This document shows positions 9,481 through 53,190 of a stretch of DNA of 64,000 nt, piece by piece. Below the pieces are notes generated by a model. The model searched no databases, had not been told where the DNA came from, and saw only the letters and a list, made by a program, of their open reading frames with translations. Made by a program: the position numbers and the translations under genes. The DNA is from Ptychodera flava (Eukaryota > Hemichordata > Enteropneusta > Ptychoderidae). The stretch is taken from the NCBI RefSeq assembly GCF_041260155.1, contig NC_091942.1:10926001-10990000 (forward strand). Direction: 5' to 3'. Positions within the stretch are counted from its first letter, which is position 1, and each line of letters starts with the position of its first letter.

Positions 9481-9879
9481 TGTGTTGGCAACGTGAAGAA
9501 AAATGACTCAAGATGTACTTGTTTGTATTGTATAATAGTTGGATTCTGTGTTTGGATTAATTGTAAGCCTTTGCTAAAGCATGCAGTTTTCAGTTTTTTT
9601 GTTAGTTTGTGTGTTCATAAAGTTTTTATGAATCTGACATTGTTTGCAATAGTGCAAAGTTTTAATTTGAGTCTATTATGGCATTTTTTACTTTGGTCAT
9701 ATCATTTTTTCGTTTTTTTAAAGCTTTGTTGTGTCTATTGTATTTTTGCTGTTACGTGTGATGACTTCTTGCCTATCATCTAGGGACATCTTATAAAGAT
9801 GCACTCATCCGTACGAAGGGGGGTTCAGTCTAAATAAAAAACTAAAGATTTTGTACACTAAAGATTTTGTATGTGGCAA

Positions 9880-10050
9880 ATTATGTTATTTTGTCGGATG
9901 GCTGGCAGCCATATTTGATTTATGCAAATTAGACATATTTCCCCATGGTGGATTCGAGTAAACTTTTAATATGTTGTTCTGGGTACCTCTCTAAAATGCT
10001 TTCTGAAGAAAAAAATTCTGTTGCAATTTGTGGTGGGTGTAACCCTATTT
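9880..10050 (-). repeat. Right arm of a separated inverted repeat
   Basis: Reverse-complement partner of 7611-7785, differing at a few positions by eye. Confidence 0.75.
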
Positions 10051-12556: not shown

Positions 12557-12730
12557 CCTATTGTTCTCTTGCAAATTAGTAATCAGTCATACTTTTTTTC
12601 ATATTTAAATAAGTAATCACTACACTTTTATTGATATGATAATGATTTTCTTTCATTAAAGTGTGGTGATTACTTATTTACATATGAATAAAAGTATGAC
12701 TGATTATTTATTTTGCATAAGAACAATAGG
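12557..12730. mobile_element. Hairpin MITE, 174 bp
   Basis: The ends are inverted repeats (CCTATTGTTCTCTTGCAAA at left, the complement of GCATAAGAACAATAGG at right). Long matched internal arms include AATCAGTCATACTTTT and AAGTAATCACTACACTTT. The loop is near 12635-12660. Arms are about 75 bp with a few mismatches. Noncoding. Family unknown. Confidence 0.65.
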
Positions 12731-13918: not shown

Positions 13919-16900
13919 AGGGTAGTCTGCTTTCAAGAAAGTTGATGCTAGTGGAACGATGAGTTTTAGACCTCCATCAGAAAAAGTTGTCAACTTTGAA
14001 GTTCGTCCAGATGACGTATACCTTATCACATTCCCCAAGTCTGGTAAGAGATTGGTTTTCCTGGCTTTTTACTTAACTTTACGATTAATTGGTGCTACGC
14101 TAGAGTATGAGGTCATTGGAATGAATCTAATGCACTTTATTTCTTTTTTCAGAAATCAGACAGCTATAGTAGCAGTTACCTTGTTTACTCTTTCTTGTTG
14201 TTGATAGATTTTACACTTCCAAAGCTATAGCGTCCAAAGCTATCTAACATGCCCCTAAAACATGATCGTTTGCCGAAAACAAACTGCATATATTTTTCAT
14301 TACAACCGACAACTTGAAAGCGCATTAAAGGTATACTGTCACCTGTTCCAATTTTGCCACAGTTACCATGGAAAGAGAAAATCTAACCAATCACAGATTT
14401 TAAGCGGGTGGCCGCTTTTTAAAAACAGCGCCCTCACATGGGCATTTTGAATACCAAGGAATGCCCCTTTGACCATATATGGACATTTTTAGATTACAGG
14501 TGACTGTATACCTTTAACATACCGAAGTGATCTCACCTGCCAGGCCCAAAATCAAAAGACAATCCTCAAAAGAGTTTCACAGTTCAATTTTTCTCTTTGG
14601 TCAATGAAAGTGTTCATGTCTAACCACTTTTTGGTTGGAAAAAATACTGAATGGATATGTAATCCAGACGTGACCTCCTGAGCGATGTATCTATGCTTAG
14701 TGATGACGTATTCTTATTGACAACAAATTCAATTCGACAGGAACCACATGGATGAAAGAGATTCTCTCCCTTATTCGAAATGGTGGTGATGTTGACGCTT
14801 TGAAGGGAACATCCATAGATGTGTCTATCCCTCAGCTGGAGTTCGTAGTCACCGACTTCCCCCGGAGAGATAAATTCTTCGAGGGGCTGGATATAACCCC
14901 TGATATCAGTTTGACAGGCATGGAATCACCGAGATTGCTTTGCACACATCTCGACTACACATCACTACCGACGCAACTCCAGGGCAATAAGAAAGCCAAG
15001 GTGCCATTAGAAGTGTTTTATCTTTGCATGTTACATTTTGAATTTATATTTGAGAATACATAACGACTGGCAAAGTCGTTCTTTTGCAGCTTTCGATAGT
15101 CAACTTTTAAAGATGCGGTTTTTTTTCTCGTCAGAAGATCAAGTAGGTAGAGTAGGCTCTGTAATCCTGGGGTTGCGGACTCTTGAAACATGATATTAAT
15201 TGCGCCAAAGGTCAGATGAATTGCACCGACCCCATCACCCCCACCCCGACACGTTGGTCAGACTTACCTGGCAGGGAATTAACTATGGCTAGCCAACAAT
15301 ATTCGTGTGTCACACATTTTCATGTGTCATACATTTCAGTCTATTATACGTCTATTTAAGCCAAGTTCTGTCAATAAGTGAAATTGTAAAGTGCGTATAC
15401 TTGGATAGACCGACGTTTCTCAGCGCAAGTACACGGAATTGACGAGTTATATTATCAGTTGTGATGAATTTCTTCCTTCCAACTCATCTTCTGTAGTTTC
15501 TTTTCACTTTACAGATAATCTACCTTGCTCGAAACCCAAAAGATGTGGCGGTGTCTAATTATTACTTCGAAAAGCTTCTCGCCCAACAGAAGATAATAAA
15601 ATCCGGGAAGGTCTACGACTGTTTCAGCGATTATGTTGTAGACTTTGTCAATGATTTAGAATATTCATTCGGATCATGTATGTAGAATCAACACCCGCTC
15701 TTTTTTTTTGAGTTTCGCTTATTTAATTTTTGCTGAGTCATCACACTCAAAGTTCGATTTAGAATAAAAATATATTGCAGCACGGATACTCCTACAAATA
15801 AGTCAAGAAAATATACCGTTAAAGCGTTATTTACATTATTTTTCTTTTTTTATCAAACTTCAACATTAAGGTAGCTACATACCTTTTAGACACTTTCAGA
15901 TTTTTATTTTTTTCTCAATTGAACACGTCCCAAACCCCAATAAAGTATACATTTTCTGAAAGCCCTGATATAGAGCTATCCGACCAAGTACAGTACACGG
16001 TCATTATTTGCATAAGAGTCACGTGACAAGCGTTTTGCTGAACCTTCCAAAAACCGGTTTTTCCCGCCTTATGCGAACACGCTGTAAGATTTCCGGTTGG
16101 AATTTCTTCATTGACAAGCCTTGACAATATCCTTCAAAACCGTGTCTGGGATTTTCTTTATATGCCTTTGTTTTTTTTTAATGCGCTCTTAAAGGTGTTA
16201 GATGAAGGTGCTTTTCAAGGAATTTTAATTATCACGCCATATAATTTGAATGGAGCCTCCGGGAAAAAATCGCAGACACGGTTTTGAAGGATATTGTCAA
16301 GGCTTGTCAATGAAGAAATTCTAACCGGAAATCTTGCAGCGTGTTTGCATAAGGCGGGAAAAACCGGTTTTTGGAAGGTTCAGCAAAACGCTTGTCACGT
16401 GACTCTTATGCAAATAATGACCGTGTACTGTACTTGGTCGGATAGCTCTATATCAGGGCTTTCAGAAAATGTATACTTTATTGGGGTTTGGGATGTGTTC
16501 AATTGAGAAAAAAATAAAAATCTGAAAGTGTCTAAAAGGTATGTAGCTACCTTAAATGACTCCGCAAAAAGTAAATTAGCGGAACCCAAAATACATGAGC
16601 GAGTTTTAATCATATACTTCAATTACTTGATAATCCCAAAGTGGCGTGAGCTTGCAGGACTTTTTTGTCAATTCTAGAATCGCCTCAATTAGACTGCGTA
16701 GTTGCCTGGCGCTCGTTGCGACACATTCCGTTCCCGGTTCATCTCTAATCATAATTTTCGATGTCGTAATTCGCAATTTAGGCATCCCTCGTTATGAGGC
16801 TGTCCACAGATTAAAGAGTGTGATGGAACTACAGAATGTAAGCAAAAGCTATAAACGGCCAATTACCACCAAGCTACCATCTACAGAACCAAGTTAAATG

Positions 16901-21742: not shown

Positions 21743-21902
21743 GGCTTGTTCACAGGTTATCGTAATGTTGCTTGGATAGTCGTTCGAGGCGGGCGGCCGC
21801 AGGTCGCCGTTTACTTGGAATTTTTTCCAAGTAAACGGCGACCTGCGGCCGCCCGCCTCGAACGACTATCCAAGCAACATTACGATAACCTGTGGGCTTG
21901 TT
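21743..21902. mobile_element. Perfect palindromic MITE, 144 bp, with 8-bp target duplication (unit 1)
   Basis: Two 70-bp arms (21751-21820 and 21825-21894) are exact reverse complements around a TTTT loop. The ends read CACAGGTTATCGTAATG. GGCTTGTT occurs at 21743-21750 and again at 21895-21902 as a target duplication. Units 3 and 4 carry the uninterrupted site (near 49395 and 61590). It is GC-rich, unlike its surroundings. The 8-bp duplication suits hAT, P or related superfamilies, but the ends do not settle which. Confidence 0.9.
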
Positions 21903-22033
21903 TACAACGTTTTTCATACCAGGTTCAACTAACTGTATAGTCAATAGATCAAGATCTAGACAGTCCCACTATGGATTTTTTTTTTTTATAGCAGTTGCTG
22001 ACAGGCACGGCAAACGCGTTCACCCCACGATCT

Positions 22034-24460
22034 AAGCATTACGTCAAAGCATATGAGCGTGCTAGGGTAGCATTAAAAGAAAGCGCTGTGCGACAGAAAC
22101 GGAATTGTGATAGGAGGTTACTATGGAAACCACTAAAGCGAGGGGATTTCGTTTGGGTGTTGAATAATAAACGAAAGAAAGGTGTGTCAGTCAAGCTAAG
22201 ACCAGTATGGGAAGGTCCATACATAGTACTCAACAAACTTTCAGATGTGTTGTACAGAATTCAGAAAGGTCCACGAGCAATGCCAAAAGTAGTTCATTAT
22301 GATAGGCTGAAGTTGTACACAGGTGATAGAATGAGAAACTGGCTTGCAGTAGAAAATAATGTAGAGGTAACAGTAGACCTTAATGATGATGAAATGTCAA
22401 TGACCGGGGAAGTGAATGATGAAGTAGTGAACGAGGGCTGTGTAGAGACAGAAGCTGGTGTAGAAGGTAGGTTAAATGAAACATTGAGCAATGGACAGAA
22501 TAGCGCTGTTCACGGTTACAGGTTTGTTACTAAATATAGCTGAACGCGCGCGACATCGGACACGCAGCTTGAAATGCGGACAAATTTTATCAATGTTGCA
22601 TGCCGTGGCTGTTTTTGCAGCTTGTACTCTGAGTCGTGAATATGTTTTTTAGTATTCACTCTTACACTAGCAGTCAGCCCACTGAGATGTATTTTCGTCG
22701 TTCTTGCATGCGTAATTTTCAAAAGCGTAATCTAAAAATGCGGACAAATATTTATTTTTGCATATTAATGAGAGAACAGTGACGTAAACTGTGAACGGCC
22801 CTATAGGAGACAGCAACACTGTGATGAGCCAGAGGCAGTAGAAACTAGGGTAGAAGAAGACATGGGGACACATCCAGTTAATGGCAAACCAAATGATAAC
22901 ACAGAACCAGTTAGGAGACGGTCAAAACGTACTATAAAGAGACCACAAAGATTCAGATTGAATGAGTTTGGATATTAAAACAAATGAATTGCATGCAGTG
23001 ACTAATATTGCATGTGCATGTCGATGGAATGTAAATTCAGCAATGGTTGGAATGTACTTAGTGAAGAGGTCTGTGAGCATAGAAAAGTACAGAGAAAGTT
23101 AAGGTGGAAGAATAAATTATGTAAAGTGTGTAGTTGCCATGGTATGCGAATGAATGCAGAAAATTATGCAGAGTGAGAGTTTGCAAATAGTATGAGAGTA
23201 GTATAGAGATAAGTTATGTAGTGTTAGTTAATAGTTTTATTGTTGTTTTTTCAAAGATAAACAGTAGATTTAATTTCATTTAATTTTCAATAGCTTTAAG
23301 TTTTATTTTAATGTCAATGTTTTATATGTCTGTATCTGACCTGTGCGAATCCCCCAGTACTTATCTGCCCTGTGCATTCCGAACCCCCCCCCCCCCAATT
23401 GACTGTGAACTGTACCGACCTTGTGCTGTATTATCTTTCACTTTAAGTAATACCCAGGAGGGCAATGACAATGTTCTTAGAAGGAGCTGTGTGAAACTTA
23501 TCAAAATTACCTTGAAATGTCGGCACCTTGGCCGCATTTCCACAAAGACATTTTATACATTTTAACCAGACAAGAGCATGGCTACATCCTGGATCAGATT
23601 CTAGGAGGAGGTCGCCAAAATATACACTTGGGGAATAGTTCCCCCTTCTCACAATTAAACCCTACTCAGTGCCTAAATATGATGGATTACAGACCATCTG
23701 TAGGTACATATGATCTGTACTTGCCGGACCATGACGCTGAGACCAGACTTTGCGTCCACTCCTTGACAATTTATCAAGGATCAAACCTTGAATGTCAAAT
23801 GCAATACATAGTGGATATAACTGTATGACTGAGCTTGGGTAGCTCACTCACGTCTCTGCACGCCTCCCTGCGGAGCCTGCTGTGTGTGCTGAAAGCCGAG
23901 ACTCTACGGTGTCAAGACTGTGGTCCCTCCATGGAGCAGAGTGACTGAACTACGAGAGAAGCACTTGGTGTGCATACACTTGGCCAGTTGTACCTGAACA
24001 GAGACAATCTCGACATCCTACGGAACCGCCGTACAGAACTTGAATTGCGGGACCTCTGATGCTAGGACAAACAACTGTGCACATGTGCTACGGGAAAGGA
24101 CTTGAACGGGATCTGTGTTGAAGTACCGGATCAAGGGATTGTATGCTCGACTGGACAGTGAACACTGCAGACGGACGCTTTATTAACCCGGGCAACTGTA
24201 GAGCTCATAGACTGTACTACACGTTACTCCTCTACCCCCTCTCTTACGCACAGGAGTCAGATAAGTTTTTCTTATTATTGTAAAATAATATTTCTTTTAT
24301 ATTTAATTAGAATAAATAGGAGAATTACTAAATTTTGTGTGTGTGTCTGGATTACTGTTGCATGGACAACAGCTGGTAACATTGATCACATGAAGAGTTC
24401 TGTCTCCCCACGTACCCACGGCCAGTAGAAACCAAGGCCTTCCAAATTAATTAACTCGTC
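22034..24460 (+). mobile_element. Ty3/Gypsy LTR-retrotransposon fossil (unit 1 copy)
   Basis: A broken partial element. The recognisable part is the C-terminal end of a Gypsy-type integrase, with the GPY/F module (PVWEGPYIVLNKLSDVLYRI) and KVVHYDRLKLY. It is followed by noncoding, LTR-like sequence with an AATAAA near 24309. A 301-bp MITE is inserted in it. The left edge is set by comparison with unit 3, where the flanking text (CCACGATCTAAGCA) runs on without the element. The right edge is uncertain and could reach about 25130, where unit 3 homology resumes. It is shared with unit 2, so it predates the recent 14-kb duplication. Confidence 0.75.
22501..22805. mobile_element. MITE, 301 bp, nested in the unit 1 Gypsy fossil
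   Basis: The unit 2 copy reads CAGAATAGGAGACAG without interruption. In unit 1 the same text is split at TA, with the element at 22503-22803 and TA repeated on both sides (ATA or TAG are also possible). The ends are imperfect inverted repeats: GCGCTGTTCACGGTTAC at left and the complement of GTAAACTGTGAACGGCC at right. The ends recall PIF/Harbinger MITEs, but the target duplication could equally be Tc1/mariner. Noncoding. Confidence 0.75.
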
Positions 24461-25342: not shown

Positions 25343-25735
<393 letters not shown>

Positions 25736-25824
25736 TGAGAGAAACAAACTTTGCTGTTTTCTCTTTTAATTAAAAAAAATCAACACTTGCATGGTGAAGT
25801 ATTTCATTTAGAAGAATAATTGGA

Positions 25825-26312
25825 TATTATTCCCTAATATTTTTCTTCGTTCAGCGAAGGAAAATACGAGTGACGTAATGACCGTGTCACCACGAGTCGA
25901 AGACGAGTGGTGACACGGTCATTACGTCACGAGTATTTTCAGAGCTGAACGAAGAAAAATATTAGGGAATAATATACTTATCACATGCACAAGCCAAGAA
26001 TTCGTTATTTTTTGCAAAATAAAATAAGTTTTCCATGACGATTCCGCGTTCAAACTTTGAACTACTTTAGGAATAAATATCAGTACGCCGTGCACAAGTT
26101 GTCAATCATTTCCAGTCGTCCGTCGTGTGCGTTAGCGCTCACGTTCGTCGTGTGTGGAGCAAATGACAGCTCTCGGTCTACACATAGGCTATCTTCCGCA
26201 AAGTTATAATCTATTTCAAAGATAGCATAGTCCTAGAAATTTATCACAGACGAAGATACGCTATTTTTCGGGAACAAATATCGACTGAATCTGAATCTTG
26301 TGCATGTGATAA
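25825..26312. mobile_element. Hairpin-capped TTATCACATG element, shortened copy (unit 1/2 junction)
   Basis: A 150-bp near-perfect hairpin (25825-25974, outer arm TATTATTCCCTAATATTTTT) is followed three bases on by an element with inverted ends TTATCACATGCACAAG (25978) and its complement ending at 26312. The hairpin core reads CGAGTCGAAGACGAG. The inner element is 335 bp here but 707 bp in the unit 2/3 copy, which retains an internal part absent here. The matching site after the unit 3 repeats (near 53275) is empty. Noncoding. Superfamily unknown. Confidence 0.7.
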
Positions 26313-30900: not shown

Positions 30901-33450
30901 ATGTTCTTTTTCTGAAATATGAAGATATGCACAAGGTAAAGTTCATGCCTTTGTGCGTCGTAAATTTTATGCTTTGGTTTTACTCTTGAATCACCATTTG
31001 ATTAAATCACGCATCGTCTCTGTAATTATCTCTCATCAAATATGCAGCGTTCTACAATCAATCGCAAGCTCTTTTTGCCTCTCAGAAGAAATAAAAAAAT
31101 TCCAACCTTCACTTTCTTTATTTGTTGATCAAGCATGCTATATGTGGTTCAAATGTAACGTGCTCTATTGCAGGCTGAAATTGTCGTTTGTAAATTTAGA
31201 ATGCGCCTTGGCCTCGGGGACAGATATTCTGACCCAATATATGTATTTTAATCTATCACGTGTTAGGATTCATTTTGAAGCTTTTTAAGTAAGTGATGGT
31301 TTCACAGGGTTACAATTGTGAAGGTAGAAAAAATCCTCTGTAGAATTGATACAGGGATGGGGACATTTTGATTTTCAATTGTCGGTAAATATTAGGTTGT
31401 TTGCTTCAGTCTTTAGTAAAGATAGCAGGGTGACCCCGGGGAAACGATAAGTAATTTTTTGACCATTAATTAATCAATGATCTGATTAATGTATCGCTCA
31501 GATAACTAAACAGAAAAGCAAAGCAATTTCTGGGACCCTCTTGAAATATTTTTGGGGTACTAACATCATGTGTAAATACCAATGATTTTACAGGACATAC
31601 GTTCTACCATAAGTGCCATCGCAACATTCTTGGACGTGGTTCTGGAGGAGAAATCGCTGGACGCCATCGTTGCAAACACCAGTTTTGAGGCTTCGAAAAA
31701 GAATCTTAGGACGCTGCGGGCAAAGTATTGCAAATACCGCCTCGGAGTGGACCCAGAAACACAGTCACCATTTGTGAGAAAAGGTAGTTACATGATTATC
31801 TGAAGAAAGTATAAAAATCTCTCACAATTGAAGACGGGCTTTGAAATCTTTGTCCGAGTGAATTTTGGGTCAGCAGGTCAAAATAAAGCCGATAGGCCTA
31901 AAGGTAGTCAAGGGCAGTTCGGAGAGGTCTTTTCGGTCTGGACGTGTTTTCTATTAAACCCTGTAATAATTTCCTCCATCCGTAATAATTCAACAGACCC
32001 TTCTGATGATACATTGTTCCACAGAGTAATATCATAGACAGAGTGGCAACAGCTATTGTTTAAGGCGTGAAGCGGTTACGTAAGCAATCCATGTTTGCCT
32101 CGCCTAACGAAGCTCTTGGCTCTCTTTTCCGAAGAGTGCCGACCATGCACCCTTCGGTAATTTTCGGATTTTCACCAATTGTTAAGCGAAAGTATGTTCG
32201 ACAAAGCGTGTGTTGTAGTTGTCGTGTGGTGCTAATCGGAATTGATGTGCTGGCGTAAACGCGAGTGTTTTGAGCTTCAGGAAAGTGGGTTTTACCGTTT
32301 TAAAAATTCCTCTCATATTTTCATGAATATATAATGAGTGTGTTTGAACCAAATTTGAAAGTCTTTTATCGATACTGTCTGGTTTTACTCAATGGTTTAC
32401 GGTCAGTCACACCGTCTTTTACACGTGCGCCAAGAAAGGACATGTTTATGAAACTGCTGGCGTGTTATGTTTTGATTGGCGTGAGGCAGTGTTTCTGGCC
32501 TGAGAGCTCACAAAGTAACTATGGTTGCTACACGACTGGCAGTACGATGCCATCTCGTCGTATGTTTCGCATAATCTCGTGTAATTATCAACCACAAACC
32601 AAGCCTCCAAAAAGGTTAACACCTTTAAAGCTCATTTTAATATGAAAAGCCAATAGTCTACCGAGACGACCATGGAACAAAAGGCATGCAAGTGTTGCCA
32701 CTCTGTCTATGATATTACTCTGTGATTGTTCTTAGTGAGCGGTACTCTCACGTACCCGGTCGAAGTGGTTACATCCGGCCTAATGTCGATACATCTTGTC
32801 TTTTAGACTGAAAGATTCTGTTATGCATTGGTCTCCTCCATCTTGGGGATGGAGTTGGCGAAGACGCATACACGATTCATTCTTTCAGTATCTCTTGTCT
32901 GTTTGCTTTCTTCGTTTAGAGCCGAACTTCGTAAGTTTGAGCAGAAACACTTTATATCAGTGCGTCTGACGTCTGACATTCAATGTGAGAAAAGTCCTAC
33001 AGAGAAAGATACGAGACCAACATATCGCCATTCTGTTACTGATAGTACCCTTTTAGAATTTAACCTTCTCTGAAGATATGTTAATATTAAAGGGAGAACG
33101 ACTGTAGCAGTTAGAAAAAAGGCTGAAGTATAACTGTTTTCATTTCTTGAGTTTTACTAAATTACCCTGTTAAAACGTCTGAAAATTTGAATTGTATTTA
33201 TAACCACAACTTATTGAATCGCCCAGAATATAGTTGGCACACTGCCTGTATCTTTTTTTTATTTTGGAGGGGGATATAGTTTGAGACAGGTCACATATTT
33301 TCCCTGAAATGACAAATTGCAACACTTTTGATTCCAGGCAAGGTCGGCGGCTGGAAAGAACACTTCACAGTTGCAGACAACGAGATGTTTGATGCAAAAT
33401 ACCAGGAATGGATGAAAGACAGCGAACTTGAATTTGACTTTGAACTTTGA
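27924..33450 (+). CDS. Cytosolic sulfotransferase, gene 2 of the array (six exons)
   Basis: Coding exons: 27964-28048, 28562-28821, 29350-29512, 30841-30935, 31594-31783 and 33338-33450, giving 301 residues with no interruption. PAPS loop TFPKSGTTW, catalytic His98, ARNPKDVAVS, FLKYEDM, RKGKVGGWK and the KxxxTVxxxE dimer motif are all present, and Cys96 again replaces the usual Lys. It differs from gene 1 mainly in exons 1-4 (STYYFEKLLAQQKLIKSG and ANSWGA against SNYYFEKLLAQQKIIKSG and EYSFGS) and has His at position 273 (KEHFT). The 3' part matches gene 1 almost exactly. An upstream ATG (27949) opens an overlapping frame in another phase. Intron 3 contains a 28S rRNA fragment and intron 5 a 705-bp transposon. 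A candidate AATAAA is at 34160. Acceptor substrate unknown. Confidence 0.9.
29905..30118 (+). rRNA. 28S rRNA fragment (pseudo-rRNA) in intron 3 of gene 2
   Basis: TGGAGCCGCCGCAGGTGCAG, TAGCAAATATTCAAGTGAGA, GGTCCCATGTGAACAGCAGT and AACATGGGTCAGTCGACCCT match the conserved large-subunit rRNA segment around GGTGGAGCCGCCGCAGGTGC...CATGTGAACAGCAGTTGAAC...GGGTCAGTCG. Only about 210 bp is present, sense to the SULT gene, with substitutions and a small duplication (CGAAGCTGCGAAGTGG), so it is a dead fragment. It is absent from genes 1 and 4 and present in gene 3 (44087-44295). Edges are approximate. Confidence 0.85.
30530..30680 (-). repeat. (TTTA)n tract plus short retroposed tail in intron 3 of gene 2
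   Basis: Counterpart of 17100-17225 with an expanded (TTTA)n of about 70 bp. Confidence 0.5.
31199..31450. repeat. GGTGACCCC dispersed repeat in intron 4 of gene 2
   Basis: Same word order as 17749-18022. Confidence 0.6.
32013..32731. mobile_element. 705-bp transposon with 31-bp perfect TIRs in intron 5 of gene 2
   Basis: Element 32020-32724. The first 31 bases (starting CACAGAGTAATATCATAG) are the exact complement of the last 31. ATTGTTC at 32013-32019 is repeated at 32725-32731 as a 7-bp target duplication. Genes 1, 3 and 4 carry the uninterrupted site (CATTGTTCTTAG at 18597 in gene 1). No transposase domain was found, so it is nonautonomous. A 7-bp duplication is unusual: hAT and P normally make 8 bp, Dada 6-7 bp. 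Perfect TIRs and absence from the duplicated partner show it is young. Confidence 0.9.
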
Positions 33451-35883: not shown

Positions 35884-36043
35884 GGCTTGTTCACAGGTTA
35901 TCGTAATGTTGCTTGGATAGTCGTTCGAGGCGGGCGGCCGCAGGTCGCCGTTTACTTGGAATTTTTTCCAAGTAAACGGCGACCTGCGGCCGCCCGCCTC
36001 GAACGACTATCCAAGCAACATTACGATAACCTGTGGGCTTGTT
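35884..36043. mobile_element. Perfect palindromic MITE, 144 bp (unit 2)
   Basis: Second copy of the 70-bp-arm palindrome (35892-36035) with the same GGCTTGTT duplication at 35884-35891 and 36036-36043. It came with the 14-kb duplication, not from a second insertion. Confidence 0.9.
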
Positions 36044-36177: not shown

Positions 36178-38330
36178 TAAGCATTACGTCACAATTTAAA
36201 GAAAGCATATGAGCGTGCTAGGGTAGCATTAAAAGAAAGCACTGTGCGACAGAAACGGAATTGTGATAGGAGGTTACTATGGAAACCACTAAAGCGAGGG
36301 GATTTCGTTTGGGTGTTGAATAATAAACGAAAGAAAGGTGTGTCAGTCAAGCTAAGACCAGTATGGGAAGGTCCATACATAGTACTCAACAAACTTTCAG
36401 ATGTGTTGTACAGAATTCAGAAAGGTCCACGAGCAATGCCAAAAGTAGTTCATTATGATAGGCTGAAGTTGTACACAGGTGATAGAATGAGAAACTGGCT
36501 TGCAGTAGAAAATAATGTAGAGGTAACAGTAGACCTTAATGATGATGAAATGTCAATGACCGGGGAAGTGAATGTTGAAGTAGTGAACGAGGGCTGTGTA
36601 GAGACAGAAGCTGGTGTAGAAGGTAGGTTAAATGAAACATTGAGCAATGGACAGAATAGGAGACAGCAACACTGTGATGAGCCAGAGGCAGTAGAAACTA
36701 GGGTAGAAGAAGACATGGGGACACATCCAGTTAATGGCAAACCAAATGATAACACAGAACCAGTTAGGAGACGGTCAAAACGTACTATAAAGAGACCACA
36801 AAGATTCAGATTAAATGAGTTTGGATATTAAAACAAATGAATTGCATGCAGTGACTAATATTGCATGTGCATGTCGATGGAATGTAAATTCAGCAATGGT
36901 TAGAATGTACTTAGTGAAGAGGTCTGTGAGCATAGAAAAGTACAGAGAAAGTTAAGGGTGGAAGAATAAATTATGTAAAGTGTGTAGTTGCCATGGTATG
37001 CGAATGAATGCAGAAAATTATGCAGAGTGAGAGTTTGCAAATAGTATGAGAGTAGTATAGAGATAAGTTATGTAGTGTTAGTTAATAGTTTTATTGTTGT
37101 TTTTTCAAAGATAAACAGTAGATTTAATTTCATTTAATTTTCAATAGCTTTAAGTTTTGTTTTAATGTCAATGTTTTATATGTCTGTATGTGACCTGTGC
37201 GAATCCCCCCAGTACTTATCTGCCCTGTGCATTCCGAACCCCCGCCCCCCCATTGACTGTGAACTATACCGACCTTGTGCTGTATTATCTTTCACTTTAA
37301 GTAATACCCAGGAGTGCAATGACAATGTTCTTAGAAGGGAGCTGTGTGAAACTTATCAAAATTACCTTGAAATGTCGGCACCTTGGCCGCATTTCCACAA
37401 AGACATTTTATACATTTTAACCAGACAAGAGCATGGCTACATCCTGGATCAGATTCTAGGAGGAGGTCGCCAAAATATACACTTGGGGAATAGTTCCCCC
37501 TTCTCACAATTAAACCCTACTCAGTGCCTAAATATGATGGATTACAGACCATCTGTAGGTACATATGATCTGAACTTGCCGGACCATGACGCTGAGACCA
37601 GACTTTGCGTCCACTCCTTGACAATTTATCAAGGATCAAACCTTGAATGTCAAATGCAATACATAGTGGATATAACTGTATGACTTAGCTTGGGAAGTTC
37701 ACTCCTCACGTCTCTGCACTCCTCCCTGCGGAGCCTGCTGTGTGTGCTGAAAGCCGGGACTCTACGGTGTCAAGACTGTGGTCCCTCCATGGAGCAGAGT
37801 GACTGAACTACGAGAGAAGCACTTGGTGTGCATACACTTGGCCAGTTGTACCTGAACAGAGACAATCTCGACATCCTACGGAACCGCCGTACAGAACTTG
37901 AATTGCGGGACCTCTGATGCTTGGACAAACAACTGTGCACATGTGCTACGGGAAAGGACTTGAACGGGATCTGTGTTGAAGTTACCGGATCAAGGGATTG
38001 TATGCTCGACTGGACAGTGAACACGGCAGACGGACGCTTTATTAACCCGGGCAACTGTAGAGCTCAAAGACTGTACTACACGTTACTCCTCTACCCCCTC
38101 TCTTACGCACAGGAGTCAGATAAGTTTTTCTTATTATTGTAACTTAATATTTCTTTTATATTTAATTAGAATAAATAGGAGAATTACTAAATTTTGTGTG
38201 TGTGTCTGGATTACTGTTGCATGGACAACAGCTGGTAACATTGATCACATGAAGAGTTCTGTCTCCCCACGTACCCACGGCCAGTAGAAACCAAGGCCTT
38301 TCAAATTAATTAACTCGTCCCGAAAACAAA
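36178..38330 (+). mobile_element. Ty3/Gypsy LTR-retrotransposon fossil (unit 2 copy)
   Basis: The same partial element as in unit 1 without the nested MITE. The end of a Gypsy integrase (PVWEGPYIVLNKLSDVLYRI, KVVHYDRLKLY) closes at 36831, followed by noncoding LTR-like sequence with AATAAA near 38171. The latter includes an open frame of 172 codons (37165-37683) of no recognised family, which may be chance. A broken copy. Confidence 0.75.
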
Positions 38331-39198: not shown

Positions 39199-39541
<343 letters not shown>

Positions 39542-39640
39542 GTGTACAAGTTGAGAGAAACAAACTTTGCTGTTTTCTCTTTTAATTAAAAAAAATCAAC
39601 ACTTGCATGGTGAAGTATTTCATTTAGAAGAATAATTAGA

Positions 39641-40500
39641 TATTATTCCCTAATATTTTTCTTCGTTCAGCGAAGGAAAATACGAGTGACGTAATGACCG
39701 TGTCACCACGAGTCGAAGACGAGTGGTGACACGGTCATTACGTCACGAGTATTTTCAGAGCTGAACGAAGAAAAATATTAGGGAATAATATACTTATCAC
39801 ATGCACAAGCCAAGAATTCGTTATTTTTTGCAAAATAAAATGTTTTCCATGACGATTCCGCGTTCAAACTTTGAACTACTTTAGGAATAAATATCAGTAC
39901 GCCGTGCACAAGTTGTCAATCATTTCCAGTCGTCCGTCGTGTGCGTTAGCGCTCACGTTCGTTCGTGTGTGGAGCAAATGACAGCTCTCGGTCTACACGT
40001 AGGCTATCTTCCGCAAAGTTATAATCTATTTCAAAGATAGCATAGTCCTAGAAATTTATCACAGACGAAGATACGCTATTTTTCGGGAACAAATATCGAC
40101 TGAATCTCGACGGCGCGAACACTTTAAAGGTCGCGCCTATGCGTACGGAACCCACGGTAGGCTATACGCGACCACTTCGAGTTCGTTGTTTCCGCAAATT
40201 ATTCACGTAATTCCTTCGGAATATACAGGCGGTACACTCTTGTGTTTACATTGTTCGGATTAGTAATGTCGTAGTCTGTGAAAATATCGATTTCATTACA
40301 TGACTTTTGATCGTGGGAGAAACATCGGCCGCCATACTGTTTGTTTACATATTTACGAGCACACCGAAGATCGACAAAAAAAAGGGCCGACGCACCAAAA
40401 TTGATGACATAGACGCGGGTTGTCGTGACGTAGAACGACCAGAGAATAAATCCCGTATTTTTTGTTCGGAGACGACAAACTTGGCTTGTGCATGTGATAA
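39641..40500. mobile_element. Hairpin-capped TTATCACATG element, longer copy (unit 2/3 junction)
   Basis: Hairpin 39641-39790, then an inner element at 39794-40500 (707 bp) with perfect 21-bp inverted ends starting TTATCACATGCACAAGCC. The interior is CpG-rich and has no recognised protein. Just inside the right end lies CGTGACGTAGAACG, similar to GTGACGTAGAACAGG just inside the larger element at 50508, which links the two families. Confidence 0.75.
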
Positions 40501-40510
40501 TAGATGTTTC

Positions 40511-40848
40511 AGTATTTTTGTTCTGTATCTGTTTCCTTAGTCTGTTCCATTAATCCATAATCACAAACATAGTCTAGATTAAACTTGAATTGTTACGTAT
40601 CTAACTTTACGATCTCTGAGTTGGGGCAACGGTCTGGTATCGTAATGCTTTTAGTGACTGAAGCTGAAGCAATAAGTCGTCGGTTGTAAGATCTACTTTA
40701 GATATTTAAACAGCAGCGGTGTGGACTCCCTTCCCTATTACCAACTCTTACCGCTGATCCACGCTTTGTCTAGAAAGTGTAAATAGTTTCCAAATCTATA
40801 TTGAATGATTCACTCAGTTACAGCTTTAATTCAATACACATGATACAG
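40511..40848 (+). promoter_or_regulatory. Conserved upstream module of SULT gene 3
   Basis: Almost identical to 26322-26660, with the same candidate donor GATACAG|GTAACG. Confidence 0.35.
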
Positions 40849-42100
40849 GTAACGTCAGAAAATATTAAAGGACAGGAAATATTGCCAAAACAGGATGAGA
40901 TGATCTTTCAACTGGAAGCGTTGGTCAACGTCAACCTCCGGTCATTTCTAACACAGGCAGGGCAATCTACTATCTATGTATCAGGTAACTTTAGGGAGCC
41001 GTCTAAAATAGAAATTTTGACGACCGCCACCCCATTTAGAAAAGTTAAATATCAAGACATGTAATTGTAAAATTTAACAAAAATACAGTAATGGTAAAGA
41101 CCTTTTATATCCTGGTGTGTCCTGCTAGATTATTATCGGTTATCTCATAACGGTTGAAAAAGGAAACAAACAAAATAATATTCAAAGTTACAACAAAATG
41201 TAGACATGAAAGCTCAGGCTATAACCAGTATCAAACCATACAGTATTGTTTACTTTGGATGGGTATCATGACAGGGTTTTCACTAAGATATCTGACAGGG
41301 CAGAATTTGAAAGTACAGAGGGCTGAGAACACCGGGGAGGCTGAGGGAGAAAGTGTCAGAGGAGGTTGTACACTCTCTTGCGTGGAAAAAATTGAGAAAT
41401 TGATCCGTGCAATGGTGCAGTCTGGTGCAATATCAGAGGTGTTTTTACTACGTAAAACTGTTAGAACACACCAAGGGGGAGAGCGCGAGAGGGGCTGTCT
41501 CATCGAAAATTTTTAGAAATTAATGTGTGAAATTGTGCAATCTGAGAGGTGTTTCAAGTCATTTTGCACCAAAAATTGAGTAAACCCCTTCTTTCTCTCC
41601 ACATTTTCAGCAACCCCCTTGTAACTTTCGATTATTTGAGTGACCTTCCTCACATTCCTCCAATCCTCCTGGGCGTAAATCATGACGGCCCCCTAAGCAT
41701 ACGTCAAAACCATGGATGTAAATTTGTTTACATCCATAAGTTCATTACTATTAAACATCCGAAATCACCGGGGCGGGGAGGGGAAGGGGTTACACACTGT
41801 TTTCTGTGGTACGTTTTACCTATAAAGACGAAAATGACATGGAAAATGTGGCATTTTCAGACTAGTATTCAGCTTGTTGATAAAGTGCATGTATGGCCAT
41901 GTTGATAATAAGTACTTTGATAAATTTTGACTTTGATTGAATTTGATTTGTTAACACTAAGAATAGTAAACTGTGCTATGCAGTGAAGTCTTATGGTGGA
42001 CGCAAAACAAAAGAATTATTATTCAATTACTTCGGGCAAATGTCTTAAAGGCATATCGATATTCTAATCTCCCCTCTCGCTCGTCTTTGTTTACTTTCAG

Positions 42101-45100
42101 AGGGTAGTCTGCTTTCAAGAAAGTTGATGCAAGTGGAACGATGGGTTTTAGACCTCCATCAGAAAAATTTGTCAACTTTGAAGTTCGTCCAGATGACGCA
42201 TACCTTATCACATTCCCCAAGTCTGGTAAGAGATTGGTTTTCCTGGCTTTTCACTGTACGATCAATTGGTGCCATGCTCGAGTATATAAGGTCTTGGGGT
42301 GAATCCATTGCACTTTATTCCTGTTTCAGAAGTTATTTAGCTATAATAGCAGTTACCTTGTTTCCTCCTTTTTGTTGTTGAAACATTCTACATTACCGAA
42401 GCTATAGAGTCCAAAATTATCTTACACGCCCCTAAAACATCTGATCGTTTGCCCGAAAACAAACTGCATATATTTTTCATCACAACCGACACAAAAGCTT
42501 TACGCTGGCATCCTGAAGTGATCTCACCTGCCAACCCCAAAGTCAAAAGACAATGCTCAAAAGAGTTTTACAGCTCAATTTTCCCTTTTGGACAATTACA
42601 TTGTTCAAGTAAAACCACTTTTTTATTGGAAAAAATAATGAATGGATAATAATCCGAATAATCCGACGTGACTTCCTGAGCGATGTGTCTATGCCTAGTG
42701 CTGACTCTTATAATTTGACAATAAATTCAATTCGACAGGAACCACATGGATGAAGGAGATTCTCTCCCTTATTCGAAATGGTGGTGATGTTGACGCTTTG
42801 AAGGGAACATCCATAGATATGTCTATTCCTCAGCTGGAGTTCGTAGTCACCGATTTCCCCGGGAAAGATAAAGTCTCCGAGATGCTGGATATAACCCCTG
42901 ATATCAGTTTGACAAGCATGGAATCACCGAGATTGCTTTGCACGCATCTCGACTACACATCACTACCGACGCAACTCCAGGGCAATAAGAAAGCCAAGGT
43001 GCCATTAGAAGTGTTTTATCTTTGCATGTTATATTCTGAAGTGATATTTGAGAATACATGTTGGCTGTGAGATCATTCAAAGTCGTTCTTTTGAAGCTAT
43101 CGATAGCCGAATTTTAAAGGTCCTTTTTTCTCGTCAGAAGATCAAGTAAGTCTAGAATAGGCTCTGTAATCCTGGGATAGCGAACTCTTGAAACATATTA
43201 AATTCGTCAAAGGTCAGATGAATCGCACCGACTCTACCCCCATCCTCACCCCCGACACGTTGGTCAGACTTAGCTGGCAGGGAATTAACTGCATGTGGCT
43301 TGCCAACAATATATTCGTGTGTCACATATTTTCATGTGTCATCAATTTCAGTTAATCATACCCCTATTTTAGCCAAGTTCTGTCAATACGTGAAATTGTA
43401 AAGTATGCATACTTGGACCAACTTACACTTTTCGTCACACATACACGTTTAATTGACGAGTTATGATCAGTTGTGATGAATTTCTTCCTTTCAACTCAAC
43501 GTCTGCAATTTCGTTTTACTTTACAGATAATCTACCTCGCACGAAACCCCAAAGATGTGGCGGTGTCTACTTATTACTTCGAAAAGCTTCTCGCCCAACA
43601 GCAGTTAATAAAATCCGGGAAGACTTACGACTACTTCAGTGATTATGTTGTGGACTTTGTCAATGATTTAGCAAATTCATGGGGAGCATGTAAGTAGAAA
43701 TCAACACCCGCTCATTTATTTTGAGTTTCGCTTATTTACTTTTTGCTGAGTCATCACAGTCAAAATTCGATTTTTAGAGAAAAATATTACACCATGGGTT
43801 CACCTACAAATAAGTCAAGAAATTATACCGTTAAAGAGTTATTTACATTATTTTTCTTTTTTAATCAAATTTGAACGTAAATGACTCAGCAAAAAGTAAA
43901 TTAGCGAATCCCAAAATACCTGAACGGATTTTAATCATATACTTCAATTACTGGATGATCCCAAAGTGGCGTGAGCTTGCAGAACTTTTTTGTCACTTCT
44001 GGAATCTCCTCACGAGGCTGTGTCAACTAGACCACGGTCATTTTAGAGAACAGTGATTACCAGTATATGCCAACCACATATGTTGCATGGCGTGCGGTGA
44101 GCGCAGAAGCGCCGGGCACGAGCAGGCGTGGAGCCGCCGCAGGTGCAGATCTTGGTGGTGGTAGCAAATATTCAAGTGAGAACCTTGAAGGTCGAAGCTG
44201 CGAAGTGGAGAAAGGTCCCATGTGAACAGCAGTTTAACATGGGTCAGTCGACCCTGAGAGACAGGAGAGCTCCGTTCTGACGCAAGGGGACGCTTGTTGA
44301 GACAAAATCCCTCCCTGGTCCATCCCCAATCACAACTTTCGATGTCGTAAAAAACAGAACGTTCAGCTATTAAGGCATTTCTGTCTTTATGAGACTGTTC
44401 ACAGTTGAAAGAGTGTGTTGGAACAACAGAATATAAGCAAAAGCTATAAATGGCCAATCACCACCAGGTTACCATCTACAGAACAAAATTACAAATGGCT
44501 CCGAAAATAAAAGATGATGTCAAGAATTGTCAACTCTGTTTTAGAGAGTTCATTATAGTCCTCCAATGAAAGACAATCGATATTGACATTCTGATTGATA
44601 TTACCCGGAGTCGTCATATTGAAAACTGGTCTTTTTTGTCATCTCACGGAGCAAAAGAGAAGAGAATTCATGTTTGCTGAGAAAAATCAGTATGAGAGTG
44701 CCATTAACTTCATTTATTAATTTATTTATTTATTTATTTATTTGTTTATTTATTTATTTATTTGGTTTTTTTGTTTATTTATTCATTCACATTTATACTG
44801 GTTTGCTACCTCAGTCAAATGCACTGATTTCAAGGGAGGACCAGTGTAAAATAAAAAAATAAACTATTATAATCAATGAACTCAAAATACATTAAATTGC
44901 AAAATACAAAACATGGTTGAAAAATGAAAGTCACGTGGCAAACAAAAGGTTAGACATATAAAATAACACTGCAAAAAATCCAACACAAAAATAAATCTGC
45001 TCCATTTCTGTTTCTTACCAGACAGCGGAATGCATTGGCACGACCATGCAATGGAGTTTTGGAGAAGACGCCATGACGAGAATGTTCTTTTTCTGAAATA

Positions 45101-46934
45101 TGAAGATATGCACAAGGTAAAGTTCATGCCTTTGTGCGTCGTAAATTTTATGCTTTGGTTTTACTCTTGAATCACCATTTGATTAAATGACGCATCGTCT
45201 CTGTAATTATCTCTCATCAAATATGCAGCGTTCTACAATCAATCGCAATTCAAGCTCTTTTTGCCTCTCAGAAGAAATAAAAAAATTCCAACCTTCACTT
45301 TCTTTATTTGTTGATCAAGCATGCTATATGTGGTTCAAATGTAACGTGCTCTATTGCAGGCTGAAATTGTCGTTTGTAAATTTAGAATGCGCCTTGGCCT
45401 CGGGGACAGATATTCTGACCCAATATATGTATTTTAATCTATCACGTGTTAGGATTCATTTTGAAGCTTTTTAAGTAAGTGATGGTTTCACAGGGTTGCA
45501 ATTGTGAAGGTAGAAAAAATCCTCTGTAGAATTGATACAGGGATGGGGACATTTTGATTTTCAATTGTCGGTAAATATTAGGTTGTTTGCTTCAGTCTCT
45601 AGTAAAGATAGCAGGGTGACCCCGGGGAAACGATAAGTAATTTTTTGACCATTAATTAATCAGATGATCTGATTAATGTATCGCTCAGATAACTAAACAG
45701 AAAAGCAAAGCAATTTCTGGGACCCTCTTGAAATATTTTTGGGGTACTAACATCATGTGTAAATACCAATGATTTTACAGGACATACGTTCTACCATAAG
45801 TGCCATCGCAACATTCTTGGACGTGGTTCTGGAGGAGAAATCGCTGGACGCCATCGTTGCAAACACCAGTTTTGAGGCTTCGAAAAAGAATCTTAGGACG
45901 CTGCGGGCAAAGTATTGCAAATACCGCCTCGGAGTGGACCCAGAAACACAGTCACCATTTGTGAGAAAAGGTAGTTACATGATTATCTGAAGAAAGTATA
46001 AAAATCTCTCACAATTGAAGACGGGCTTTGAAATCTTTGTCCGAGTGAATTTTGGGTCAGCAGGTCAAAATAAAGCCGATAGGCCTAAAGGTAGTCAAGG
46101 GCAGTTCGGAGAGGTCTTTTCGGTCTGGACGTGTTTTCTATTAAACCCTGTAATAATTTCCTCCATCCGTAATAATTCAACAGACCCTTCTGATGATACA
46201 TTGATCTTAGCGAGCGTTACTCTCACGTACGCAGTCGAAGTGGTTACATCCGGCCTAATGTCGATACATCTTTTCTTTTAGACTGAAAGATTCTGTTATG
46301 CATTGGTCTCCTCCATCTTGGGGATGGAGTTGGCGAAGACGCATACACGATTGATTCTTTCAGTATCTCTTGTCTGTTTGCTTTCTTCGTTTAGAGCCGA
46401 ACTTCGTAAGTTTGAGCAGAAACACTTCATATCAGTGCGTCTGACGTCTGACATTCAATGTGAGAAAAGTCCCACAGAGAAAGATGCGATACCAACATAT
46501 CGCCATTATGTTACTGATAGTACCATTTTAGAATTTAACCTTCTCTGAAGATATGTTAATATTAGGCCTAAAGGGTGAACGACTGTAGCAGTTAGAAAGA
46601 AGGCTGAAGTATAACTGCTTTCATTTCTTGATTTTTACTAAATTACCCTGTTAAAACGTCTGAAAATTTGAATTGTATTTTATAAGCACAACTTATTGAA
46701 TCGTCAAGAATATAGTTGGCACACTGCATACCTGTATCTTTTTTTTATTTTGGAGGGATATAGTTTGAGACAGGTCACACATTTTCTCTGAAATGACAAA
46801 TTCCAACACTTTTGATTCCAGGCAAGGTCGGCGGCTGGAAAGAATACTTCACAGTTGCAGACAACGAGATGTTTGATGCAAAATACCGGGAATGGATGAA
46901 AGACAGCGAACTTGAATTTGACTTTGAACTTTGA
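42101..46934 (+). CDS. Cytosolic sulfotransferase, gene 3 of the array (six exons)
   Basis: Coding exons: 42141-42225, 42739-42998, 43527-43689, 45022-45116, 45781-45970 and 46822-46934, giving 301 uninterrupted residues. It carries all SULT motifs listed for gene 1, including Cys96 for Lys. Exons 1-5 and their introns are almost identical to gene 2. Small differences include QLEFVV for QLELVV, QQQLIKSG for QQKLIKSG and YDYFSDY for YDCFSDY. The last exon has YREWMKD where the others have YQEWMKD, and the 3' flank is more diverged. Intron 3 carries the 28S rRNA fragment; intron 5 lacks the 705-bp element of gene 2. A candidate AATAAA is at 47639. Confidence 0.9.
44087..44295 (+). rRNA. 28S rRNA fragment (pseudo-rRNA) in intron 3 of gene 3
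   Basis: Same fragment as in gene 2. Here it keeps GATCTTGGTGGTGGTAGCAA, nearer to functional 28S than the gene 2 copy, so the shorter form in gene 2 is secondary. Confidence 0.85.
44710..44850 (-). repeat. (TTTA)n tract plus short retroposed tail in intron 3 of gene 3
   Basis: Counterpart of 30530-30680. Confidence 0.5.
45388..45636. repeat. GGTGACCCC dispersed repeat in intron 4 of gene 3
   Basis: Same word order as 17749-18022. Confidence 0.6.
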
Positions 46935-49394: not shown

Positions 49395-49960
49395 ACTTGT
49401 TCACAAAGTTTTACATACCAGGTTCAGCTAACTGTATAGTCATTAGATCAAGATCTAGACAATCCCACTATGGATTGGCTTTTCTCGACAGCAGTTGCTG
49501 ACAGGCCAAGCAAACGCGTTCAACCCACGATCTAAGCAACAGCCTACCACTGACGCGCAGTCTGCTGAAGTTTATTCATTCGAGTTATTCTGTTTTGATA
49601 TTTATATGCCCACAGACTTGTAACAAGTGTAGTAAAGATCGATAAAACCAGTAAAGAGTAGCTTGGCCATTGGGAGACTCCTAACGCACTCTATAATAAG
49701 ATAAAAACGTATCGTACTAACTTTGACTGGTAGTGTTGCTTCGTAATGGAGGTACATTGTACATGTAATATTTGTTCACTTCGCCTGTAAGGCAACCAGT
49801 CTGATGAAAACTAGTGTGATGAAATGTGTAACCGTACAGTGACTTTGCTTGCTAGATTAGAAAGGGTTTATAAAACCAATTATTAATAGTTGTGCCCTGG
49901 AGCTGCATAAACCCTATGTTATGTCAAATTTACGCTGCGTTAACTGCGTTGTTCCCCACT
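49395..49960. other. Unit 3 tail: empty sites for the palindromic MITE and the Gypsy fossil
   Basis: No gene. GACTTGTTCACAAAGTTTTA near 49395 is the pre-insertion form of the 144-bp palindrome site. CCACGATCTAAGCAACAGCC near 49526 runs on into about 240 bp of host sequence that the Gypsy insertion replaced in units 1 and 2. Homology rejoins those units at ATATTTGTTCACTTC near 49770. Confidence 0.7.
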
Positions 49961-49968
49961 TGATTGCG

Positions 49969-50165
<197 letters not shown>

Positions 50166-50166
<1 letters not shown>

Positions 50167-50327
50167 ATATAATCCCATGGTATTTTTCTCTGTTTGACGT
50201 CATCGTATACGAGTGTTTTTCGCGGAGCCGTACAACTTCGAGCCGAAGGCGAGAAGTTGTGCAGCTCCGCGAAAAACACGAGTATACGATGACGTCAAAC
50301 AGAGAAAAATTCCATAGGATTATATAT
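50166..50327. repeat. Hairpin H1 next to a TTATCACATG end
   Basis: Near-perfect palindrome: ATAATCCCATGGTATTTTTC to a core CGAGCCGAAGGCGAG and back. The arms contain TGACGTCATCGTATAC, a CRE-like TGACGTCA. The core matches CGAGTCGAAGACGAG of the hairpin at 25825. Confidence 0.85.
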
Positions 50328-51804
50328 TTATCACATGAACAGTCTTCTTATTTTTCTTTGATGTGGATGGATCAAAATTATTGTAACAAATTGCATGATT
50401 TTTATCGCGATTTTGTGTTTTATTTACGCGGATTACTTACATTTAATGAGTAAAGCGGTCCGTCACCCAGGAGATGTGCAAATGTTTACAGGTATACTTT
50501 CATTCATTTATCACATGAACTGGCCCGAATTCCCACCTGTGTGACGTAGAACAGGACGGATAAGAAATCCGAATTACCCCTGTTGTACGTCATCAACCGG
50601 AACTTTTTTCTTTTGCATGGTACCGTTCATACATGCGGGTCGCGACGTGAACATAGACCGATTTGTCGTGATCGATGCCGTACTCTCATGACATTTTTAC
50701 AAAAAAGGTGACCCGATAAATCCACACATAGAAACATAGAAGGCATGTCCAGTGAAATTTTGAGTCGCTAAAACTATAGCTGTTCCCGAGAATCGAATGG
50801 GGATACCGCCGATCCAGTCGAGTCGCCTCGTAAGGCTCAATGTGGACGTCGTACCTGGCGATCCCGGTCGGCGATAAACCTGAAATCTACACCTCAACGG
50901 AAGTTGAACTGAATAAATGAGTACAGTATAATCTTCGGGAAAGCGACATACAGGCACAAGCAAAAAGTCATTCGACTAACAACGATAAATTTCCTTCGTC
51001 ATACAAAAAATTCCGTAAATTCTTGCTCGGGATCAAACCGGTAGCGCGGCGGCGTAAGGCTGTAGCGCTAGCGAGAAGACATCAGTATGCATTGCAGCGC
51101 TGCGCTGTGGAATCCAATGTACTTCGAAAGTTGACTCAGCAACACTCAAAACAGAGTTTCCGTCAAGTAAAATTAGGATGTATCTACGGGTGAGATATAT
51201 GTCACTGCAAACATCCGAAAACATTGACGACCGAGATCGGAATTAACGAGTTGACACCTGCATAGCAGAGACCGGTGACGGCAGCGTTGTGGGATCGTGA
51301 ATGAGGTATACTCTGTGTGTCATCGAACGGAATCTTTCGCGCTCGCCACGGTCGTAAACTTGTGTGATGTTTTGAAAAGCCACGGAATCTCTGAGAATGA
51401 GAATACTGTTTCGATCGTGTCGTTGCATTTACTTCATAAATCTATTTGTAAATATTCTGAATAACTCTGAATACTATGGCTATCCGTCGCTAGCACGATG
51501 AAAGTTATGTCCACCGTACCGATGGCCGACTTGCCTTGGCATCGGTACAGCGCGAGACAATGATTGACAGGTTCACGTGACAGAATCCGTATGTCTGGTT
51601 GGTGGAGATACCATTTCATGTAGTTAATTTCAGCTTGATGGGATTTATGAATGAAAGTATCTCCTGGGTGACGGGCCGCTTTACTCTTTAAATGAAAGTA
51701 ATCCGCGTAAGTAAAACAAATCGCGACGAAATTCATGCAATTTGTTACGATAATTTTGATCCATTCACGTCAAAAAAAAAATAAGAAGACTGTTCATGTG
51801 ATAA

Positions 51805-51969
51805 ATATATAATCCCATGGTATTTTTCTCTGTTTGACGTCATCGTATACTCGTGCTTTTCGCGGAGCCGCACAACTTCTCGCCTTCGGCTCGAAGTTGT
51901 ACGGCTCCGCGAAAATCACTCGTATACGATGACGTCAAACAGAGAAAAATACCATGGGATTATATATAT
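51805..51969. repeat. Hairpin H2, inverted partner of H1
   Basis: Same palindrome as H1 with the core reversed (CTCGCCTTCGGCTCG), so H1 and H2 are an inverted pair flanking the b-A-b element. Confidence 0.85.
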
Positions 51970-53131
51970 AAATCCATTAAGCTAACAAATTTATACATGG
52001 AATGGTACCTCCACCAATCAGACATACGGATTCGGTCACGTGCGCGTGTCAATCATTGTCTCGCGCTGGAGCGATGCCAAGGCAAGTCTGCCATCGGCGG
52101 ACATAGTTTTCACCGCGCTGGCGACGGATAACACTAGTATTTTGAGTTATTTAGAATATTTACAATTATATTTATAAAGCGAATGCAACGGCACGATCGA
52201 AACAGTAGTGATCATTCTTAGAGATGCTGTGGCTTTTAAAATATCACAAGTTTACGGCCTTGGCGAGCCCGAAAGTTTCAGATCGATGACACAGTACACA
52301 CACAGTGTACGCTTGTAGTTGTACAGTGGGCACTGCGCGTCACCGGTCTCCGCCGCTGGCCATCTCAGTCGTCAATGTTTTCGTCATACGGACTTTGATA
52401 TTTGCTGTGACACATATATCCCCCGTAGGTACTTCCCAATTTTGTTACTTGACGGGAACTCTGTTCTGTTGTGAGTGTTGTCCGAGACAACTTTCGAAAT
52501 GCATCGGATTCTACAGCGCTGCACTGCAGAGTTTACGCTACAGGTCGACAGCTCAGGTTTGATTACGATCGAGAAACAACGGAATAATTTGTGTGATGAA
52601 GGAAATTTATCGTTGTTCGTCGATATTTGTACCTTCTATGTCGCTTTCCCGAAGTTTATACGGAATTCATTTATTAAGTTGAACTTTCGTTGAGGTGTGT
52701 CTTTCGAGTTTATCGCCAACCGGGATCGCCAGGTACGACGTCGCTTGGCGATCGCCAGGTATAGTAAGACGCGACGACGTCCACGTCCACATTGAGCCTT
52801 GCGACTGGAGCCGTGACGTTACTGAGCCAAACGATCGACGGTATCCTCATTCGATTCTTTGGGATAGCTAAAGCTTTAGCGACTCGAAATTTCGTTGGGC
52901 ATGCCTTCTATGTTTCCGTATCTGGATTTGTCGGGTCACCTTTTTGTCAAAATGCCATGAGAGCACGGTATCGATCACGACAAATCCGTCTGTGTCGCGA
53001 CGTGCACGTACGAACGGTACCATTGCAGGAAAAAAGTTCCGGTTGATGACGTACAACAGCAGTAATATGGATTTCTTATCCGTGCTGGTGTACGTCACAC
53101 AGGTGGAGATACGGGCCAGTTCATGTGATAA

Positions 53132-53190
<59 letters not shown>
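53132..53190. repeat. (TA)n(TG)n microsatellite
   Basis: Follows directly on the CATGTGATAA end of block A. TACAAGTTGAGAGAAACAAA then resumes the junction text seen at 25730 and 39545. Confidence 0.95.

Follow-up and report, generated by a model that had tools for sequence, protein, structure and literature searches.

Nested self-insertion as the source of an inverted-repeat composite in Ptychodera flava, in a transposon family with a giant hairpin at one end

The inverted-repeat composite at positions 50166–53131 of a 64,000-nucleotide stretch of Ptychodera flava DNA (the window) is almost certainly a nested self-insertion, laid out as H1-b-[U2 backwards]-A′, in which a non-autonomous transposon, U2, sits inside a member of its own family, U1. 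The overall layout of the composite is ordinary, and the interleaving of its repeats needs no new architecture. What is unusual, and is the point of interest rather than the composite, is a family in which just one end carries a hairpin, giant in size and conserved. It probably represents a new form of asymmetric rolling-circle-like transposon, distinguished by that one-sided hairpin, and a nested insertion together with a rolling-circle family is, in our judgment, the likely full explanation. The components of the nested pair are as follows.

~50163–53131, minus strand: U1, the outer element, in the pieces ~50163–50507 and 51970–53131, with its 5′ end at 53131 and the 3′ end of its hairpin near 50163
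50508–51969, plus strand: U2, a complete family member inside U1 in reverse orientation, consisting of a 5′ TTATCACATG, a body, CATGTGATAA, and H2
50165–50327, minus strand: H1, a 163-nt hairpin at the 3′ end of U1; predicted energy of the DNA fold, short flanks included, −72.6 kcal/mol
51805–51967, plus strand: H2, a 163-nt hairpin at the 3′ end of U2; predicted energy of the DNA fold, short flanks included, −82.2 kcal/mol
50328–50340, plus strand: inner inverted repeat of U1, abutting H1
50508–50520, plus strand: 5′ terminal inverted repeat of U2, at the insertion boundary
51792–51804, minus strand: inner inverted repeat of U2, abutting H2
53119–53131, minus strand: 5′ terminal inverted repeat of U1, at its outer boundary

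The ends of U2 are ambiguous by at most 2 bp, and the 3′ limit of U1 (~50163), which falls in a TA microsatellite, is approximate to the base.

The original prediction read the composite as a candidate new transposon architecture built from the parts H, b, and A, with inverted pairs that overlap instead of nesting. The repeats are real, and the pairs (b,b′) and (A,A′) do overlap in a non-nested fashion. The inverted pair formed by H1-b (50164–50475) and b′-H2′ (51659–51968) is 93.6% identical over 313 columns (E ~1e-134), and that formed by A (50506–51648) and A′ (51968–53133) is 73% identical with gaps, with identity at 883 of 1086 ungapped positions. Likewise, H1 and H2 are, as described, hairpins; both are near-perfect palindromes with 80-nt arms. 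The prediction also had TTATCACATG common to all termini, which is where it fails. The composite contains four occurrences, at 50328 (+), 50508 (+), 51795 (−), and 53122 (−); the outer ends of A and A′ carry the sequence, and their inner ends, at 51648 and 51970, lack it. The absence at the inner ends is a clue that A runs on into b′-H2′ as a single element.

Read in this way, A, b′, and H2′ make up a complete element, U2, which opens with TTATCACATG at 50508 and closes at 51969, where hairpin H2 ends, and H1-b (to 50507) together with A′ (from 51970) makes up a second complete element, U1, running in the opposite direction. When 50508–51969 is removed, one complete family member is left, and its rejoined flanks read TTCAT|AAATCC, corresponding to an empty target TTCAT^AAATC. 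At the homologous place, the joint between b and A in U2 itself reads ACTTTCATTCATAAATCC without interruption, so that the rejoined flanks of U1 match uninterrupted U2 sequence; the proposal of a new interleaved architecture is not sustained. With U2 taken out, U1 aligns with U2 from end to end. The bodies are identical at 870 of 1067 ungapped positions (81.5%), the b parts at 138 of 149 (92.6%), and the inner repeats plus hairpins at 168 of 173 (97.1%), with gaps in 188 of the 1577 alignment columns. In inverted orientation, H2 is 97% identical to H1, and the hairpin end is far more alike than the body (Fisher p ~6e-9), a pattern that constraint on the end, or its homogenisation, would produce.

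Given the full-length alignment of U1 with U2 and the empty site inside U1, only one insertion is needed. A single element with overlapping inverted pairs, moving as a unit, has the existence of those pairs in its favour, but we regard it as very improbable, since one insertion suffices, the inner ends of A and A′ lack the terminal sequence, and another member of the family, E3, displays the simple plan. An inversion between H1-b and b′-H2′ was also considered as the source of the overlap and was dropped because one insertion explains every joint. As for the very large cruciform foreseen for the composite, any two oppositely oriented copies of the family could give such a fold, and its formation or action here would be hypothetical.

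Members of a related subfamily, E3, are found at two other places in the window.

25824–26312, minus strand: E3 copy 1, with hairpin H3 at 25824–25975, a 3′ end near 25820, and a 5′ TTATCACATGCAC ending at 26312
39640–40500, minus strand: E3 copy 2, with its hairpin at 39640–39791 and a 3′ end near 39636

The window is rich in segmental duplications, including a pair about 14.2 kb apart in which 26297–32019 matches 40485–46206 at 99%, and the two E3 copies are one insertion carried along by segmental duplication. Internally, copy 1 has less sequence than copy 2. The paralogous site, near 53.28 kb, lacks E3 altogether. E3 has the plan of U1 and U2, that is, TTATCACATGCAC at one boundary, a body, CATGTGATAA, and then the hairpin H3. 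The best local match of E3 with the U elements is the junction of repeat and hairpin, scoring 43 against U2 and 33 against U1; among 200 mononucleotide shuffles of E3 aligned to U2, the maximum was 30. The inverted repeats are about 13 bp in the U elements and about 21 bp in E3. That E3 repeats the plan of hairpin and TTATCACATG elsewhere in the window, using another hairpin sequence, bears out two further statements of the original prediction: H, b, and A belong together instead of being unrelated repeats that met by chance, and the composite is no fresh assembly artefact.

Several segmental duplications extend across 14500–61100 around sulfotransferase-like exons and serve as built-in empty sites. 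Two paralogs, near 25.6 kb and 39.4 kb, have the sequences that flank U1 separated by 112 and 133 bp. In both paralogs, the TA microsatellite contains a short non-repetitive island (~25540–25600 and 39368–39420) that is missing where U1 sits.

The family plan is asymmetric: the 5′ boundary carries TTATCACATG, and after it come a body with no recognised coding, CATGTGATAA, and a hairpin of 152–163 nt that runs to the 3′ boundary. It is present at three insertions (U1, U2, and E3) representing two subfamilies. In all three, the inserted unit includes the hairpin, which follows immediately on the inner repeat and always at the same end, and the inner repeat lies 158–165 nt from the 3′ end. Allowing up to two mismatches, TTATCACATGMAC has 16 sites in the window against 5.46 expected; the eight exact sites all fall within U1, U2, and the two E3 copies, and the eight with two mismatches are not classed as family members. 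No hairpin using the 5′ repeat was found at the 5′ end, where the best complements are 5 bp in U1, 5 bp in U2, and 3 bp in E3, lengths equalled or bettered in 422, 445, and 1999 of 2000 shuffles, respectively; the predicted folds of the 5′ ends are weak. None of the six ORFs scanned in or across the elements had a Pfam match at E 0.01, the whole window gave no Rfam match at gathering thresholds, and a scan of the repeat–hairpin junction against viral contigs gave none.

The hairpin stem has changed between the subfamilies while remaining paired. Comparison of the column pairs of H2 and H3, with gapped pairs excluded, yields 38 that are paired and unchanged, 26 in which both sides have changed and pairing is retained, and 17 that are unpaired in at least one hairpin; that is, 26 of the 64 pairs kept by both have changed on both sides. 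On the structure derived from H2, 94.9% of 294 cells are paired, vs. 33–47% when the structure is slid by one to three columns. Pairs with changes on both sides number 27, against a shuffle mean of 22.1 (2 of 500 shuffles as high), and the covariation score is 0.485 vs. 0.223 in shuffles (0 of 500 as high). Further pair types number 30, which is below most shuffles (36.5; 492 of 500 as high). The comparison spans two independent subfamilies, and the palindrome could also persist by arm-to-arm copying. The predicted DNA fold energies of the hairpins range from −70 to −82 kcal/mol.

Other parts of the hairpin have stayed fixed. The tip CTCGYCTTCGRCTCG is exact in all four hairpins, both E3 copies included, and a search of the window at up to three mismatches found no sites beyond these four; 3 of 100 shuffled windows also reached four such matches, mismatched ones counted. 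In addition, H1, H2, and H3 have in common two CTCG/CTCG sites with two mismatches each. The sharing of these four mismatch positions has a hypergeometric p of ~3e-4, in a test chosen after the data had been seen, and shared ancestry by itself could account for their retention. The opposite strand has CGAG facing CGAG, an arrangement that might form tandem sheared G-A pairs.

Two insertion sites, those of U2 and E3, are informative about the target. With exact matching of 5 + 5 bp at the empty site, a target duplication of 0, 1, or 2 bp is allowed at U2 and one of 0 or 1 bp at E3; a stricter 7 + 7 core has solutions at U2 and no exact one at E3. The only lengths that fit both sites exactly are 0 and 1, and insertion at A^T with zero duplication fits both. 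At U2, there is no exact solution with TT at the joint. At E3, the listed joint is A^TT, and a T^T joint shifted by a single base was lost solely to a mismatch in the flank, five bases off, so E3 taken alone would be compatible with a TT target. The 5-bp sequence ATCTA flanks E3 copy 2, and copy 1 has ATCCA on one side. ATCTA could be a target duplication if one indel relative to the empty paralog is allowed.

Zero-duplication insertion at A^T, which fits both sites, is also what an AT-specific inverted-repeat element, moved by an unspecified enzyme, would leave, as with the ATons of the mosquito Aedes aegypti. According to PMC3422177, ATons are non-autonomous elements with inverted repeats that insert at AT, some with subterminal palindromes, and our family is like them in having no recognised coding, in having inverted repeats, and in sites that fit insertion at AT. 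However, they are described there as being less than 500 bp in length with terminal inverted repeats at both boundaries, with no large one-sided hairpin among the features given, whereas one repeat of the present family lies 158–165 nt inside the boundary. We consider such an origin rather improbable.

A different view of the hairpin is that it is not part of the unit. In that case, a cut-and-paste (DDE) MITE would have TTATCACATG...CATGTGATAA as its true ends, H would be a separate palindromic MITE adjoining it, and U2 would still be nested in U1. The inverted repeats, roughly 13 and 21 bp long in U and E3, respectively, are of the sort this view calls for, a 2-bp AT duplication at U2 or the 5-bp ATCTA at E3 is possible, and a solo palindromic insertion does occur in the same window, at 21751–21894, duplicated at 35892–36035. 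But H abuts the inner repeat directly, at the same end, in three of three insertions, U2 and E3 match best, in local alignment, at the junction of the two, and no duplication of at least 2 bp exactly fits both empty sites. If H belongs to the unit, one repeat is 158–165 nt inside the boundary in every insertion, and a transposase cutting two terminal inverted repeats is a misfit unless H is a separate insertion. On this evidence, a DDE MITE with a neighbouring palindrome is unlikely, while deserving more weight than the ATon-like origin.

The solo palindrome just mentioned is 144 bp long and 97% self-complementary, starts with CACAGG, and is flanked by the 8-bp repeat GGCTTGTT; it is missing from the paralog at 49396–49405 and therefore looks like a solo palindromic MITE. 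Other repeats in the window include an insertion of about 705 bp at 32020–32724, with identical 32-bp inverted ends (CACAGAG...) and ATTGTTC on both sides, which is absent from the paralog near 46200; a 690-bp stretch at 15866–16555 that matches its own reverse complement at 88.7%; and a 169-bp inverted pair (7613–7781 and 9870–10038), 95% alike with tandem repeats between, in which TATCACATG at 7780 is probably a chance occurrence. The inverted repeats at 7613–7781/9870–10038, 12573–12713, and 21751–21894 were rejected as family members, having neither the tip nor an exact TTATCACATG. A gypsy-like integrase C-terminal fragment is found at 36181–36828 (Pfam Integrase_p58_C, E 1.9e-14), and 21992–22543 contains a similar ORF. 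This fragment, taken with a sulfotransferase-like exon, points to a eukaryotic and probably animal source for the window.

We return to the rolling-circle reading, which is favoured because the layout of the family is that of Helitron2 and the Helentron-associated elements. According to PMC3627910, Helitron2 elements have a 5′ repeat 0–2 bp from the end and a 3′ repeat immediately upstream of a hairpin and 20–30 nt from the 3′ end. Helitron-1N1_CRe makes no target duplication, the CRe-1,2,3 elements make duplications of ~7–19 bp, and compensatory changes at the ends of two related Helitron2 elements are reported in the same text (PMC3627910, Bao and Jurka 2013). The family shares with Helitron2, as there described, a 5′ T and asymmetric inverted repeats, of which the 5′ member sits at the boundary and the 3′ member directly upstream of a terminal hairpin. 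It differs in the size of the hairpin (152–163 nt) and in the distance of the 3′ repeat from the end (158–165 vs. 20–30 nt), and also in having no detectable 5′ hairpin and no Rep-helicase among the six ORFs scanned.

The Helentron-associated elements (HINE and DINE-1; PMC4067079, PMC7492417) are likewise non-autonomous, and they too have inverted repeats in subterminal positions, the 3′ one followed by a palindrome. They make no target duplication, and zero is among the lengths allowed at U2 and E3. They differ in their short 3′ palindromes, a preference for TT, and frequent internal tandem repeats or microsatellites; in mite HINEs, the 3′ repeat is 38–60 nt from the 3′ end and the 3′ palindromes are 5–10 bp. 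The U2 target, unlike that of Helentrons, is not TT. Among the matches listed from the open-licence PMC literature, as represented by titles and the starts of abstracts, no Helitron-type element with a hairpin this large was recognised. We file the family as neither Helitron2 nor Helentron; judging by analogy, it most likely works like one.

On balance, we lean towards movement by a rolling-circle mechanism. An HUH/Y2 Rep-helicase supplied from elsewhere would move the family by copying one strand as a rolling circle. The 5′ repeat would set the start, and the inner repeat and the hairpin would together set the stop, with insertion taking place between A and T without target duplication. In this scheme, the enzyme, the choice of strand, and the hairpin as stop signal are the parts that we infer. 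We propose that the hairpin is retained because the enzyme reads its shape and its tip.

It is tempting to go further and suggest a new rolling-circle-like lineage of eukaryotic DNA transposons, whose stop signal is a hairpin of 152–163 nt with a conserved TTC/GAA tip and two conserved mismatch sites and whose enzyme reads shape; we hold this to be doubtful. The terminal hairpins of parvoviruses are long, have a mismatch in the stem, and are read by an HUH Rep enzyme. They differ in being the ends of viral genomes, and the likeness to the hairpins of U1, U2, and E3 is one of description. If the new lineage is true, the enzyme would read hairpin shape as the Rep proteins of parvoviruses do.

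Classing non-autonomous elements that have a hairpin on one side is difficult, and the family formed by U1, U2, and E3 offers a clean test. Its stem has been altered by paired substitutions between subfamilies, while the tip and the internal mismatches are fixed, so that the parts that would be read by an enzyme become predictable and can be assayed. The composite itself illustrates that a nested insertion within one family can pass for an interleaved composite.
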